64,000 bases of DNA from Sebaldella termitidis ATCC 33386 (GTDB lineage: Bacteria; Fusobacteriota; Fusobacteriia; Fusobacteriales; Leptotrichiaceae): contig NC_013517.1 of NCBI RefSeq assembly GCF_000024405.1, positions 1,860,001-1,924,000 of the forward strand, given 5' to 3'. Shown piece after piece: positions 57,862 to 64,000 of this stretch. How positions within the stretch are numbered: position 1 is the stretch's first letter; the number at the start of each line of letters is the position of its first letter. The translations under genes and the position numbers were made by a program. The notes under the pieces were generated by a model, which saw nothing but the letters and a program-made list of their open reading frames with translations, was not told the DNA's origin and did no database searches.

Positions 57862-58905
57862 TTACTTTGAAACAGTGGGGCTTACCACAATTTCCCCGCT
57901 TGCTATTTTTTCTTTTATTTCTTCAAGTTTCTTTATATTTTCTTCACCGATTTTATCCTTTGTGAATTCAAAGTCTGTAAGACCTACTCCGCCTTCTTTT
58001 ACTCCGAATTCATATACTTTTCCTTCAAATTTATCTTCTTTGACGTTTTTAACAAGATCGTATACAGCAACATCAACTTTCTTTAGCATAGAAGTAAGTA
58101 TAGTTCCGGGAAACAGATCATCCTGATTAGAATCCACACCTATTGCAAAGACACCCTTATCTTTTGCTGCCTGAAACATACCCTGTCCGCTTGAACCAGA
58201 TGCATGGTAAACTATATCTGCTTCCTGACCGACTATTGCTTCAGTTCTTGATTTTGCCGATGCAGGATCATGGAATGCATTTGTTCCTCCGATATAAACA
58301 GCCAAAACCTTTATATCAGGCTTTACATATTTGGCACCCTGCTGATATCCTGCTTCGAATTTCTGTATTAACGGAGCTTCGGCACCGCCGATAAATCCTA
58401 CAGTATCCGTCTTGGTCATCATAGCTGCAAGGGCTCCTGCAAGGAATGATCCTTCGTGTTCTTTGAATGTAAGAGAAGCAACATTTGATAATTCAGGTAC
58501 TCTTTCATCTGTAATTGCAAATTTTTGTTCAGGAAATTCTCCGGCTACAGTAACAAGTGCATCCTTCATCATAAATCCTGTAGCTATAATAAGGTCATAT
58601 TCTCCGCTTTCAGCATAAGTTCTAAGCTGTCCTTCAGCCTCAGAAGTAGGGTCTTTAGGTTCATAACCTACATATTCTATTCCAAGCTCATTTTTAGCTT
58701 TTTCAAGACCTCTTTGTGCAGCATCGTTAAATGAATGGTCTCCCAGTCCTCCCACGGAATAAACAATTGCTACTTTAACATTGCTTTTTTCAGCAGATGC
58801 TTCAGTCTTTGTTTCTCCTCCTGTTTCATCTTTGGCAGTGTCTGTCTTTCCGCAAGATATCAGAAATAAAAGTGACAATGTTAAAAATAATAAAATCTTT
58901 TTCAT
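57862..58905 (-). CDS. BMP/PnrA-family nucleoside-binding lipoprotein, copy 3
   Basis: A 347-residue lipoprotein with lipobox FLISC (Cys18). The binding domain starts at VAIVYSVGGLGDHSFNDAAQRGLE. FKEHEGSFLAGALAAMM, VYIGGTNAFHDPASAK, YHASGSSGQGMFQAA and GVDSNQDDL are as in copies 1 and 2, with His in GDHSF where the others have Asp or Asn. TAGGAGG precedes the ATG. It follows pnp in the same direction after a 183-base leader with a hairpin. It is probably the binding protein for the ABC importer that begins at 61.8 kb, though copies 1 and 2 may share it. Confidence 0.92.
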   Translation of the reverse strand: MKKILLFLTLSLLFLISCGKTDTAKDETGGETKTEASAEKSNVKVAIVYSVGGLGDHSFNDAAQRGLEKAKNELGIEYVGYEPKDPTSEAEGQLRTYAESGEYDLIIATGFMMKDALVTVAGEFPEQKFAITDERVPELSNVASLTFKEHEGSFLAGALAAMMTKTDTVGFIGGAEAPLIQKFEAGYQQGAKYVKPDIKVLAVYIGGTNAFHDPASAKSRTEAIVGQEADIVYHASGSSGQGMFQAAKDKGVFAIGVDSNQDDLFPGTILTSMLKKVDVAVYDLVKNVKEDKFEGKVYEFGVKEGGVGLTDFEFTKDKIGEENIKKLEEIKEKIASGEIVVSPTVSK

Positions 58906-59088: not shown

Positions 59089-59907
59089 CTAAATATTTTC
59101 AATAATACCGTCTACAAGACTTTTGAAAGCAGGCTTCATTTTTTCGCCCATTTCCAGAACCTCCACATGGTTCAGAGGCTGATCCAGAATTCCGGCAGCC
59201 ATATTTGTGATGGCAGAGATACTGAGAACTCTCATTTTTCCGTGTTTGGCAACTATAGTTTCAGGAATAGTAGACATTCCCACATTGTCGGCACCAAATG
59301 ATCTGAATAATTTTATTTCTGCGGGAGTTTCAAAATTTGGTCCGCTGTATCCGATAAAAACTCCTTTTTTTATGTTAATATTAAGTTTTGATGCTGTATC
59401 TTCAGCAATTTTTACTAAATCACGGTCATAAAGATTAGTCATATCCGGGAATCTGTCACCGAATTCATCTTCATTTTCTCCTATAAGGGGATTATCACCC
59501 ATAAAATTAATATGATCAGTTATTATCATAAGATCACCGGGTCTGAAATCTTTATTTAGCCCGCCTGTTGCATTAGTAGTAAACAGAATTTCTATTCCTA
59601 ATTTAGTAAAAACACGAATGGCATATGTAGTAGCATACATTCCTTTTCCTTCATAAAAGTGAAGTCTTCCCTGCATGCATACTACTTCCTTACCGTGTAT
59701 TTTTCCGAAAACAAGCTGTCCTTTATGTCCTTCTACACTAAGTGTGGGAAAGTGGGGTATATCGCCGTAAGGAATTACAACCTTGTCTTCAAGCTCATCG
59801 GCATAGTCGCCAAGACCCGAACCGAGGATAAGAGCCACTTTCGGATTGGCATTCGTTTTGGTTCTGATATAAGCGATAGATTCATTTACTCTGTCAATTA
59901 ATTTCAT
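59089..59907 (-). CDS. punA: Purine nucleoside phosphorylase, trimeric type
   Basis: A 272-residue enzyme of the inosine/guanosine phosphorylase family. It splits purine nucleosides with phosphate to the base and (deoxy)ribose 1-phosphate. ALILGSGLGDYAD carries the phosphate-binding Ser. VEGHKGQLVFG and CMQGRLHFYEG are family blocks. TNATGGLN, YSGPNFETPAEIK and GMSTIPETIVAKH line the ribose and base sites, and TNMAAGILDQPLNHVEV is the purine-recognition loop. Its ATG overlaps the stop of the upstream Crp/Fnr gene by four bases. The product cannot be distinguished as strictly 6-oxopurine-specific, but the family suggests it. Confidence 0.94.
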   Translation of the reverse strand: MKLIDRVNESIAYIRTKTNANPKVALILGSGLGDYADELEDKVVIPYGDIPHFPTLSVEGHKGQLVFGKIHGKEVVCMQGRLHFYEGKGMYATTYAIRVFTKLGIEILFTTNATGGLNKDFRPGDLMIITDHINFMGDNPLIGENEDEFGDRFPDMTNLYDRDLVKIAEDTASKLNINIKKGVFIGYSGPNFETPAEIKLFRSFGADNVGMSTIPETIVAKHGKMRVLSISAITNMAAGILDQPLNHVEVLEMGEKMKPAFKSLVDGIIENI

Positions 59908-60626
59908 ATTTTTCTCCTGTCCATCTGTAGATTTTCTTTTAATTCTTTCAGCTTTTGCAGCTGAAAATTGTTTATGTAAATTTTTCCTGAATTTATAGAG
60001 ATTAGATTCTCATTTTTTAGCTTTTGGAGCAGTCTGTTTATTGTTCTTTCATTTAAGCCTATTCTTTCACCAAGTTCTTTTCTGGTGTTTTTCAGTCTTA
60101 TATTAAAATTTTCCGCGGTTTTTCCGCCGGTGATATTATCTACCACATTAATAATGGTAGAAATAAGACTGTAATTGGAATTATATACCATATATTTCCC
60201 GTTTTCATTTGAAGATTCATGGAACCTTTCGGCAAGACGCCGGGCCACATGAAGGGCAAAACCATGGTACAGCTTCATCCATTTTAAAAATACCTTGTCG
60301 TCCACGGCAATAAGCGTGCATTCATCAATGGATTCAATAGTGCATGCAGAACCCTTTGCTAAAGAAACAATCTCAATATCGCCGATAATTGATAATAATT
60401 TTAGTTCTTTTAGTATATATGCATTTCCGTTAGCAAATTCATTAACCAAAAGAGCTCTTCCAGAGATAATAATACCGATAAAATTAATGTGTTCACCTTT
60501 TTTTACAATGATATTCTGCGGCTTGTAAATAACCAGTCTGCAATGTTTACGGAGCTCCTCACGGGGTATGTCTTCAAAATATCTTTTTAAATAATCATTT
60601 TTAGAAATATAGTCTAAACTCTCCAT
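59904..60626 (-). CDS. Crp/Fnr-family transcriptional regulator, first copy (CrpA here)
   Basis: A 240-residue regulator with an N-terminal cyclic-nucleotide-binding-like barrel (HINFIGIIISGRALLVNEFANGNAYILKEL...IIGDIEIV), a dimerisation helix (about 115-150) and a C-terminal winged helix-turn-helix, TRKELGERIGLNERTINRLLQKLKNENLI. The residues that bind cAMP in E. coli CRP are not clearly kept, and no iron-sulfur cysteine set like that of FNR is present, so the ligand is open. It overlaps pnp by four bases and is thus the first gene of a crp-pnp unit. A palindrome lies about 94 bases upstream. Confidence 0.9.
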   Translation of the reverse strand: MESLDYISKNDYLKRYFEDIPREELRKHCRLVIYKPQNIIVKKGEHINFIGIIISGRALLVNEFANGNAYILKELKLLSIIGDIEIVSLAKGSACTIESIDECTLIAVDDKVFLKWMKLYHGFALHVARRLAERFHESSNENGKYMVYNSNYSLISTIINVVDNITGGKTAENFNIRLKNTRKELGERIGLNERTINRLLQKLKNENLISINSGKIYINNFQLQKLKELKENLQMDRRKI

Positions 60627-60709
60627 TAGGTTACCCCCTGTAAAATTATTTTATCACCGCCTTTATATTTAAGTATATAAGACAAATTTAGCACACTTAT
60701 AAATATAAT

Positions 60710-60731
60710 AAAAAGGACATATGTCCTTTTT
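60710..60731. promoter_or_regulatory. Perfect palindrome, candidate Crp/Fnr site upstream of CrpA gene
   Basis: AGGACA (60714-60719), TA, TGTCCT (60722-60727), flanked by five A and five T so that 22 bases are fully symmetric. On the minus strand an extended -10-like TGCTAAATT lies at 60693-60685, which would put the palindrome centre near -42, the position of class II activator sites. The same sequence could also form a short terminator hairpin for the upstream crp gene, because a T run follows. Confidence 0.6.
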
Positions 60732-60850
60732 TGTAAAAAAATAAAGACGCGACAGAAAAAATATAATACGGCAGCTCGTCTGATATCAGCTGAACAGACC
60801 AAACTGCAATAGTCATATAAAATAATAATTTATGCAGTTATTAAATAAAA

Positions 60851-61480
60851 TCAGCGGCGTATATATATAATTCTCTTTTTTTCCCTTTTGATAATACCTT
60901 TATCACTTAATTTTTTTAAAACCCTTGTAAGGTTGCGATAGCTTACATTCAGGTTTTTTGAAAGGGCTTCCAGTGATTTGAAATGATATTCATAATTATT
61001 TTCAATAAGAATGTCTACTATAATATCTTCCAGCTTATTATTTAGCTTTTTTAAGACTGAGTAGTTGGTTTTGATAAGTTTATCGGCACTTTCAACAGCC
61101 ATTTTTTTCCAGAAATGAACATTGCCGGAAAGCTTGGCATCCAATATTGAAAATGGAATGGTCAAAATTTTGGTGTTATTTTCTTTGGTAACAAGATTTT
61201 GCAATATTGTCTTTATTCTGGCAACATATTCAATATCACAGAAAACAGCAGGCGGGTACAGTTCGTCTATAATATGGTGATTTCCGTTTTCAAGAATACT
61301 GTTTACCTCTATTTTACCTTCTGCTAAAAAACAAAGATTGTCCACTGGTGCGCCGGCTTCATAAAGCAGTGTATTTTTTTTGTAAACTTTTATGTTAATA
61401 TCAGACATAATAGAAGGCGGGAGTATACTGGACAAACCATATTTGTCAATATAGTATTTTACTTCAATAATCTCTCTCAT
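60851..61480 (-). CDS. Crp/Fnr-family transcriptional regulator, second copy (CrpB here)
   Basis: A 209-residue regulator with a cNMP-binding-like barrel (LLYEAGAPVDNLCFLAEGKIEVNSILENGNHHIIDEL), a dimer helix (about 120-150) and the helix-turn-helix SLEALSKNLNVSYRNLTRVLKKLSDKGII. Identity to the neighbouring Crp/Fnr protein is modest by eye, but their recognition helices are similar (RNLTRVLKKL and RTINRLLQKL). It has its own extended -10 promoter. The start is preceded by AAAGGA. A near-perfect palindrome lies in its leader, about 27 bases from the ATG, consistent with autorepression. Confidence 0.9.
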   Translation of the reverse strand: MREIIEVKYYIDKYGLSSILPPSIMSDINIKVYKKNTLLYEAGAPVDNLCFLAEGKIEVNSILENGNHHIIDELYPPAVFCDIEYVARIKTILQNLVTKENNTKILTIPFSILDAKLSGNVHFWKKMAVESADKLIKTNYSVLKKLNNKLEDIIVDILIENNYEYHFKSLEALSKNLNVSYRNLTRVLKKLSDKGIIKREKKRIIYIRR

Positions 61481-61499
61481 AGCAATATTATCCTTTGTT

Positions 61500-61515
61500 T
61501 AGGACATGTGTCCTA
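61500..61515. promoter_or_regulatory. Second copy of the AGGACA-N2-TGTCCT palindrome
   Basis: TAGGACA (61500-61506), TG, TGTCCTA (61509-61515). It lies downstream of the predicted CrpB transcription start (near 61526), at about +18, where bound protein would block transcription. The arm sequence is the same as in the 60.7-kb palindrome. Confidence 0.65.
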
Positions 61516-61532: not shown

Positions 61533-61541
61533 ATTATATCA
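61533..61541 (-). promoter_or_regulatory. Extended -10 promoter of CrpB gene
   Basis: On the minus strand TGATATAAT. No good -35 is present. Together with its mirror image at 61562-61570 it forms an inverted repeat ATTATATCAT...ATGATATAAT. Confidence 0.65.
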
Positions 61542-61561
61542 TAAATTCAGAGAGAAATATA

Positions 61562-61570
61562 TGATATAAT
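61562..61570 (+). promoter_or_regulatory. Extended -10 promoter facing the ABC importer
   Basis: TGATATAAT on the plus strand. Transcription would start near 61578 and give a leader of about 210 bases before the ATPase gene. No consensus -35. Confidence 0.5.
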
Positions 61571-61634
61571 AATGTGAAAAATTCAGTGCCTTGTCCGATC
61601 TCATTTTAACAGCAGAATAAGTTAATGGGGGACA

Positions 61635-61688
61635 GGTGTTTTGACATTGATAAATAACGGATACTTGTATTTTATCTAGTAAAACACC
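61635..61688 (+). promoter_or_regulatory. Structured leader of nucleoside-type ABC importer
   Basis: GGTGTTTT (61635-61642) pairs with AAAACACC (61681-61688). Inside, GATAAA (61649-61654) pairs with TTTATC (61671-61676). A T run follows at about 61700-61706. The conserved nucleotides of purine riboswitches are not seen. An attenuator is possible. Confidence 0.4.
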
Positions 61689-61788
61689 AGTGTAATAAAT
61701 TTTTTAGAAAATATTTTTGTTGATCATTTTGACCTTGGAAGGGGAAGGAGCCAGGGAAGTTAGAGAAAAATTTTTAATAGGAGGCAGA

Positions 61789-63306
61789 ATGAGCGAATAT
61801 ATCCTGGAGATGGAAAATATACGTAAGGAATTTTTAGGCGGGAAGGTAATAGCGAATGAAGATATTACCTTAAAGGTAAAAAAGGGAGAAATCCATGCAA
61901 TAGTCGGTGAAAACGGAGCAGGGAAATCCACACTGATGAAAATGCTGAACGGACTGTATGAGCCTACAAGCGGGAAGATACTCTATAAGGGAAAGGAAAT
62001 AAATATAGATTCACCGTCAGTAGCAGCCAAGACAGGAATAGGAATGGTTTATCAGCACTTTATGCTGGTAGATACTCTTACTGTGGCAGAAAATATGGTT
62101 CTTGGCTTTGAGCCGAGTATAATGGGAAAATTTGATAAGAAGAAGGCAAGACAGGATGTAATAGATGTAGCAGAGAAATACGGACTTAATATAAATCCTG
62201 ATTCAAAAGTAGAAGACCTTTCGGTAGGTATACAGCAGAGAATAGAGATACTGAAAATACTTTTCAAGGGAGCGGAGCTTCTGATATTTGACGAGCCGAG
62301 TGCAGTGCTGACACCGCAGGAGGTAAAGGAACTGTATCAGATAATGAGGAATCTGGTAAAAGAGGGGAAAACAATAATATTCATAACACATAAATTACAG
62401 GAAGTACTTGATGTTTCAGATAATATAACAGTAATAAGAAAAGGAAAGAACGCGGGAAGTATAAAAACAAGTGAGGCAACAAAAGAGATAATAGCCAATA
62501 TGATGGTAGGAAGAAAGGTATTGTTTGAAGTAAACAGACCAGATGTAGAGCTTGGAAAAGACTTAGTAGAAGTACTGAATATGAGAGTAAACGGAGATAA
62601 CGGTCTTGAGGCGGTAAAGGGAGTAGACCTGATAATCCATGAAGGAGAAGTTCTGGGAATAGCAGGAGTGGAAGGGAACGGCCAGACAGAGCTGATAGAA
62701 GCACTTGCAGGACTGAGAAAGGTGGAGAAGGGAAGCTTTAGAATAGGAGAGCAGAATCTGACACATTCATCACCGAGAGACAGAAGAGAAAGCGGACTTT
62801 CCCATATACCGGAAGACAGACATAAGAGAGCAGCAATAGATGATTTTACAATAGAGGAAAATATGATACTCGGAGTGGAAAATAATTACTGCCGGGGATC
62901 AATACTGGATTTTGGAAAAATAACAGAGAAAACAAATGAATATATAAAGAAATATGATATAAGAACACCGGATTCAAAGGTAAAGTTCGGAGGCCTGTCA
63001 GGAGGAAACCAGCAGAAGGTGGTAGTAGCAAGAGAGCTGGAGAAAGAAAACAGATTCATAATAGCGTCACAGCCGACAAGAGGAGTTGATATAGGAGCAA
63101 TAGAGATGATCCATAATACAATCCTGAGTGAAAAAAAGAACAAGAAGGCAATATTGGTAGTATCAGCAGAGTTATCCGAGGTAATGAGCTTAAGTGACAA
63201 GATAGCGGTAATGTATGAAGGAAAAATAGTGGGAGTACTGAAAAGAGAAGAGGCAACGACAGAGAAACTGGGAATATTAATGGCAGGAGGTAAAATTGAT
63301 GAATAA
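61789..63306 (+). CDS. Nucleoside/sugar-type ABC importer ATPase with two ATP-binding domains
   Basis: A 505-residue fused ATPase, as in BMP-dependent nucleoside importers (YufO/NupA type). ATG 61789 is preferred because AGGAGG lies four bases upstream. The first domain has Walker A GENGAGKST, signature LSVGIQQR and Walker B LLIFDEPSAVL. The second has the degenerate Walker A GVEGNGQTE and signature LSGGNQQK, typical for this family, with the Walker B region altered to FIIASQPTRGVD. Its stop overlaps the permease ATG by eight bases. Purine nucleosides are the inferred substrate from the PnrA-like lipoproteins and pnp nearby. Confidence 0.93.
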   Translation: MSEYILEMENIRKEFLGGKVIANEDITLKVKKGEIHAIVGENGAGKSTLMKMLNGLYEPTSGKILYKGKEINIDSPSVAAKTGIGMVYQHFMLVDTLTVAENMVLGFEPSIMGKFDKKKARQDVIDVAEKYGLNINPDSKVEDLSVGIQQRIEILKILFKGAELLIFDEPSAVLTPQEVKELYQIMRNLVKEGKTIIFITHKLQEVLDVSDNITVIRKGKNAGSIKTSEATKEIIANMMVGRKVLFEVNRPDVELGKDLVEVLNMRVNGDNGLEAVKGVDLIIHEGEVLGIAGVEGNGQTELIEALAGLRKVEKGSFRIGEQNLTHSSPRDRRESGLSHIPEDRHKRAAIDDFTIEENMILGVENNYCRGSILDFGKITEKTNEYIKKYDIRTPDSKVKFGGLSGGNQQKVVVARELEKENRFIIASQPTRGVDIGAIEMIHNTILSEKKNKKAILVVSAELSEVMSLSDKIAVMYEGKIVGVLKREEATTEKLGILMAGGKIDE

Positions 63307-64000
63307 AAAGTATGTGGAAATTTTAACTCCGTTACTGGCGGTATTGACAGCCTTAATAATAGGGGGAATAATAATCCAGCTGAATGGCGTAAATGCATTT
63401 GAGGCATATGGGCAGTTATTTAAGTCGGCATTTTATCAGGCGAATCCGAAGGCACCGTTTATGAGCGGACTGGCAAAGACACTGCTGACGGCAACACCGA
63501 TGATATTTGTGGGATTATCAGTAATGATAGCTTTTAAGGCGGGATTATTTAATATAGGAGCCCAGGGACAGATGATAATGGGCGGAGTAGCAGCAGCAGT
63601 AGTAGGGATATATGTAAAGAATGCATTTCTGGGGAACTTTGTAACAGCAATAATAGCAGCAGGAATAGCAGGTTTTTTATGGGCTTCGATATCAGGTTAT
63701 CTGAAGGCAAAGTTTGGAGTTCATGAGGTAATAAGTACAATAATGTTAAACTATATAGCGATCAATCTGCAGAATTATCTTCTGAACTATCCGTTGAAAG
63801 ATCCGGCATCCCAGAATGTCCAGACAATGAAGGTTCTGGAACCGGCAAGATTGTTTTTGCTTGCCCCGTCAACAAAACAGAAGCTGAATTTAGGATTTAT
63901 ACTGGCAATAGCAGCGGTAATACTGGTATGGTATTTCTTCGGTAAGACAAAACAGGGCTATGAGATGAAGGCAGTAGGTCTGAATGCAGGTTCTGCAGAG
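63299..64000 (+). CDS. ABC importer permease, BMP-associated (partial, runs off window)
   Basis: Starts at ATG 63299 inside the end of the ATPase gene, with GGAGG upstream. 234 codons are present before the window ends. MNKKYVEILTPLLAVLTALIIGGIII is the first membrane segment. IAFKAGLFNIGAQGQMIMGG is the family signature that contacts the ATPase. GVHEVISTIMLNYIAINLQNYLLNYPLKDP matches the YufP/NupB-type permeases. Several other hydrophobic segments are visible. A second permease would be expected further downstream. Confidence 0.93.
   Translation, partial: MNKKYVEILTPLLAVLTALIIGGIIIQLNGVNAFEAYGQLFKSAFYQANPKAPFMSGLAKTLLTATPMIFVGLSVMIAFKAGLFNIGAQGQMIMGGVAAAVVGIYVKNAFLGNFVTAIIAAGIAGFLWASISGYLKAKFGVHEVISTIMLNYIAINLQNYLLNYPLKDPASQNVQTMKVLEPARLFLLAPSTKQKLNLGFILAIAAVILVWYFFGKTKQGYEMKAVGLNAGSAE

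Follow-up and report, generated by a model that had tools for sequence, protein, structure and literature searches.

The window, which is the whole stretch of 64,000 nucleotides of Sebaldella termitidis DNA that was analyzed, carries two genes for CRP/FNR-family regulators, designated crpA and crpB. The perfect palindrome AGGACA-N2-TGTCCT is located once before each of them, with 787 bp between the two copies. The genes and sites of the locus, together with two further copies of the palindrome elsewhere in the genome, are the following:

57862..58905, reverse strand: bmp, PnrA-like substrate-binding lipoprotein (Pfam Bmp 220 bits)
59089..59907, reverse strand: pnp, purine nucleoside phosphorylase, overlapping the crpA stop (TIGR01700 343 bits, cut-off 293)
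59904..60626, reverse strand: crpA, CRP/FNR-family regulator of 240 aa, proposed target
60685..60690, reverse strand: candidate crpA-pnp -10, TAAATT after TGc; operator centre at about -42.5, or -41.5 with CTAAAT
60714..60727: predicted operator 1 (site 1), AGGACATATGTCCT, upstream of crpA-pnp; exact palindrome, kept in all three Sebaldella genomes having this gene pair
60851..61480, reverse strand: crpB, YeiL-like CRP/FNR-family regulator of 209 aa, proposed owner of the operator
61501..61514: predicted operator 2 (site 2), AGGACATGTGTCCT, common to the divergent crpB gene and nup-deo operon; exact palindrome, conserved across genera
61533..61541, reverse strand: predicted crpB extended -10, TGATATAAT; start at about 61526, operator centre at about +19.5
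61537..61542, forward strand: predicted nup-deo -10, TATCAT, kept in deoA promoters of other genera; start at about 61549, operator centre at -41.5
61789..63306, forward strand: ATP-binding protein of a nucleoside-type ABC importer, first gene of nup-deo (assigned from the ORF list and by reading the sequence)
63296..64000, forward strand: importer permease 1, continuing beyond the window
C1:2849838: site 3, upstream of a three-gene xanthine dehydrogenase (xdh) operon
C1:4278338: site 4, upstream of a gene for a secreted 5'-nucleotidase-family protein

After permease 1 the nup-deo operon continues with a second permease, deoA, deoC, deoB, a nucleotidase gene, deoD and cdd. With curated models, deoC, deoB, deoD, cdd and PNP scored above their cut-offs, PyNP subfamily and 5'-nucleotidase domains could also be identified, and in the operon at site 3 the XdhA equivalog reached 1215 bits (cut-off 916). 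The predicted nup-deo leader (61549-61788, ∼240 nt) contains an inverted repeat, GGTGTTTT...AAAACACC, which is partly kept in the nearest relative of S. termitidis (genome G089) and could add a layer of leader control; it matched no Rfam family, and no riboswitch match was obtained in the region.

In the whole 4.49 Mb genome the perfect palindrome occurs four times, compared to ∼0.13 copies expected from the base composition (33.4% G+C; Poisson P of 4 or more ∼1e-5), and a reversed control pattern, which is likewise palindromic, gave no match in the same genome. All four copies precede genes for nucleotide or nucleoside salvage. The original prediction of two same-armed sites before two Crp/Fnr genes was confirmed: both sites are exact, and both gene products scored above the Pfam cut-off of 27.5 for cNMP_binding (PF00027; CrpB 36.6 bits, CrpA 34.6). 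The genome scan that it had proposed shows that the palindrome finding holds and has more behind it than was originally claimed. The motif is also, as had been claimed, distinct from the standard sites of CRP (TGTGA-N6-TCACA) and FNR (TTGAT-N4-ATCAA). When one mismatch was allowed, two additional genomic sites were found, both of them intragenic, and a composite search for weaker S. termitidis sites (operator with three mismatches plus -10) yielded fewer matches than the control. Therefore, no further targets are claimed. The proposed purine-responsive circuit held in part: the link to purine salvage stands, but the restriction to purines does not, as PyNP, deoC, deoB and cdd, and nupC in relatives, are among the associated genes. 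Since the targets extend past purines, the set is better called a nucleoside regulon.

CrpB is a two-domain CRP-type protein of the CRP/FNR superfamily, as judged by profile comparison. Its profile matches solved CRP-family chains across both domains (e.g., 1o5l, residues 29-207, E 7.5e-15), and its CRP-type C-terminal HTH scored slightly under the cut-off of 27 (22.6, compared to 35.2 for HTH_Crp_2 in CrpA). The best NCBIfam match is YeiL (NF007707; 4.6e-14), at 52.6 against a cut-off of 180 and thus below it. Orthologues share the recognition helix SYRNLTR and vary in it at only one position (T/S). Compared to CRP, Arg185 is kept and Glu181 is replaced by Arg, which would fit an operator that retains G at ±5 and is changed elsewhere. 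CrpB was rejected as a cAMP-CRP orthologue, as it lacks the Arg82/Ser83 cAMP contacts and its whole-protein score is 20.9 bits against a cut-off of 266. It was also rejected as an FNR orthologue, as the N-terminal cysteine cluster is absent and no Cys falls in a column that is invariant, or nearly so, across 13 CrpB orthologues. It is therefore unlikely that CrpB takes its signal from cAMP or a 4Fe-4S cluster; its targets suggest a nucleoside-derived effector.

CrpB orthologues (E up to 2e-30) were identified in 31 of 98 genomes, mostly encoded divergently from deoA, and many genera have perfect or near-perfect sites in the crpB-deoA intergenic region. At 28 of 30 loci with a CrpB orthologue (Cetobacterium, Propionigenium, Psychrilyobacter and others), AGGACA follows ATGATAT at a spacing of exactly 28 nt. 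ATGATAT reads as the crpB extended -10 on one strand and as the deoA -10 on the other, and this double use explains the rigid spacing, with one operator serving both promoters. The site is missing at two CrpB loci, namely in G035, which has a perfect site before the neighbouring nupC instead, and at the additional CrpB copy in G050. The crpB sites of g19, g25 and Propionigenium G054 have a degenerate second arm (ATGCCA, CTGCCA, GAGTCA). Strict sites were present in 11 of the 31 genomes with CrpB but in only 2 of the 67 without it (Fisher P 4e-5, the genomes being related and the tests not independent). A degenerate pattern gave 36 matches versus 10 for the control in genomes with CrpB, and 9 versus 17 in those without; away from salvage loci it fell mostly within coding sequence. 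No operator was found in the deoA regions of four CrpB-free fusobacteria.

Comparison of S. termitidis with G089 showed that all four sites are kept except for two central bases. Upstream of xdh and of the 5'-nucleotidase gene the operator forms an island of conservation, and in the latter case conservation starts at the operator. A third genome of the genus (G088, CrpB 69% identical) has retained the sites at crpA and crpB but has none at its xdhA gene, so that the regulon varies. In Propionigenium maris G054 a perfect site lies upstream of two Bmp-lipoprotein genes. Another perfect site of the same genome (C15:31309, L091 7310-7323), followed by a -10 after 22 nt, is located directly 3' of a CrpB paralogue and precedes a lysozyme-like gene. 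A perfect site in G036 (C16:27855, L093 6856-6869) is located directly upstream of a uracil phosphoribosyltransferase-like gene; this genome has no CrpB orthologue and the site no -10 at 22 nt, and it may reflect chance or a different reader.

Because the site accompanies CrpB in genera without CrpA, CrpB is regarded as the owner of the operator. That CrpA, or CrpA together with CrpB, reads the sites in Sebaldella is rather unlikely. Both proteins carry Arg where CRP has Glu181 and also at Arg185, the former of which means that CrpA could bind the same sequence, and one site lies ahead of each of the two genes. The remaining residues of the recognition helices differ, however (NERTINR in CrpA, SYRNLTR in CrpB), and close orthologues of CrpA occur only within Sebaldella, so that CrpA is not the general owner.

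The promoter geometry indicates how the operator might act. At sites 2, 3 and 4 a -10-like hexamer (TATCAT, TAAAAT and TATATT, respectively) begins exactly 22 nt beyond the operator, which places the operator centre at about -41.5, the position of a class II activator. Operator, 22 nt and TANNNT without mismatches occur together only at these three sites in the whole S. termitidis genome, and none of the three has a recognisable -35 hexamer. The crpA-pnp promoter has the weakest -10 of the four, with an offset of 22 (CTAAAT) or 23 (TG-c-TAAATT). The offset of 22 was spotted by visual inspection of the site 2 family before it was tested: over eight non-homologous promoters, a set that includes the C15 site of G054 with its lysozyme-like neighbour and may therefore reach outside the regulon, the summed -10 match was 35 at offset 22, while the next best offset reached 26. 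This score was reached in none of 20,000 dinucleotide shuffles at offset 22 and in 3 of 20,000 when every offset was allowed. With the set restricted to the four Sebaldella sites, the corresponding values were 0.001 and 0.026. An operator at about -41.5, a -10 and the absence of a good -35, as expected for class II activation, are thus found together at the level of sequence. The original prediction had placed site 1 near -42 of a crpA-pnp promoter and site 2 near +18 of the crpB promoter, in a repressor position. Both placements hold approximately, but it had missed that site 2 is at the same time in activator position for the divergent importer operon, and it did not include sites 3 and 4.

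As all four genomic copies precede such genes at activator distance, the palindrome is very probably a CrpB switch that turns on nucleoside import and breakdown in Sebaldella and many other fusobacteria. The specific reading, in which the palindrome is the CrpB operator and mediates class II activation of a nucleoside regulon together with autorepression of crpB, is given a probability of about 0.78; the direction of control is suggested by position alone. It is unlikely that CrpB is mainly a repressor, inactivated by nucleosides, which acts at all promoters and blocks RNA polymerase by occupying the operator beside the -35 region. The crpB site at +19.5, a repressor position, is conserved across genera, and nucleoside catabolism is under repressors in Escherichia and Bacillus (CytR, DeoR). 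An exact 22-nt offset in unrelated promoters is, however, expected for class II activation and unneeded for repression, sites 2 to 4 have no recognisable -35 hexamer, and most CRP/FNR proteins are activators. It is very improbable that the palindromes are intrinsic terminators rather than operators. Site 1, 120 bp beyond crpB, does fold into a hairpin of 9 bp followed by a U-rich tail (-10 kcal/mol, z -4.2), and its A/T runs are kept in three genomes. Sites 3 and 4, however, have no U-run and are found ahead of genes. Site 2 has a T-run, but it and its homologues are situated among divergent promoters and not at a gene end. A terminator, moreover, needs neither a constant AGGACA nor a fixed spacing. 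The terminator alternative raised in the original prediction survives only as a possible dual role of site 1 and leaves sites 2, 3 and 4 unexplained. With its conserved A/T runs (60710-60731), site 1 makes a good bidirectional terminator hairpin, and it may serve as the crpB terminator besides binding CrpB.

In the favoured reading of CrpB as a class II activator, a CrpB dimer would bind both 6-base arms of the predicted operator, with binding gated by an effector that is probably one of the substrates or intermediates in the breakdown of nucleosides. From -41.5, CrpB would then activate the importer-deo operon and crpA-pnp, and likewise the operon for xanthine dehydrogenase and the gene of the secreted 5'-nucleotidase, four units in all. 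Combined, these targets would lead from dephosphorylation of extracellular nucleotides via import and splitting of nucleosides to oxidation of the purine bases. Bound to the same operator at +19.5 of its own divergent promoter, CrpB would limit its own synthesis. CrpA would be a target and possibly a second regulator in Sebaldella.

An uncharacterised branch of the CRP/FNR family thereby gains a predicted operator with a list of targets and a defined promoter geometry, and because these are concrete, the function of the CrpB branch is directly testable. In an anaerobe of the termite gut and its relatives, one predicted regulator would tie together the hydrolysis of nucleotides outside the cell, the import of nucleosides, their phosphorolysis and the oxidation of xanthine. 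Neither this operator nor a fusobacterial CRP-type nucleoside regulator was found described in the literature that was searched. What is new is the operator; a regulon under a CRP/FNR-family protein is of a known type.

In E. coli, cAMP-CRP acts with CytR, and a CRP-fold protein thus activates genes of the nup, deo, cdd and udp type, as is proposed for CrpB; CytR has been the subject of comparative work (PMC3454398). The two systems differ in the operator, in the CytR partner, of which no counterpart was seen here, and in the cAMP contacts that CrpB lacks. With FNR and class II promoters CrpB shares the operator position at -41.5, and with FNR also the conserved G at ±5 (TTGAT-N4-ATCAA versus AGGAC-N4-GTCCT), whereas the sequence differs, the CrpB orthologues have no conserved Cys, and FNR Glu209 is replaced by Arg in CrpB.

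The closest curated family is that of E. coli YeiL, whose gene is likewise divergent from nucleoside genes (rihB-nupX) and whose recognition helix reads SYRHLLY versus SYRNLTR in CrpB. The AGGACA palindrome is absent from the E. coli yeiL-rihB intergenic region; the region contains ATGAGA-N2-TCTCAT (L104 9293-9308), which has the same 6-2-6 geometry and is a possible candidate for the YeiL operator. YeiL was still listed among the factors of unknown function in a 2022 survey (PMC9308461), and the present results offer a lead toward this unexplained regulator. As a tentative and rather doubtful extension, CrpB may represent a broad YeiL-like CRP/FNR branch that senses a nucleoside-derived metabolite, is ancestral to most Fusobacteriota and shares its function with E. 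coli YeiL, which would read rihB-nupX via a changed 6-2-6 operator.
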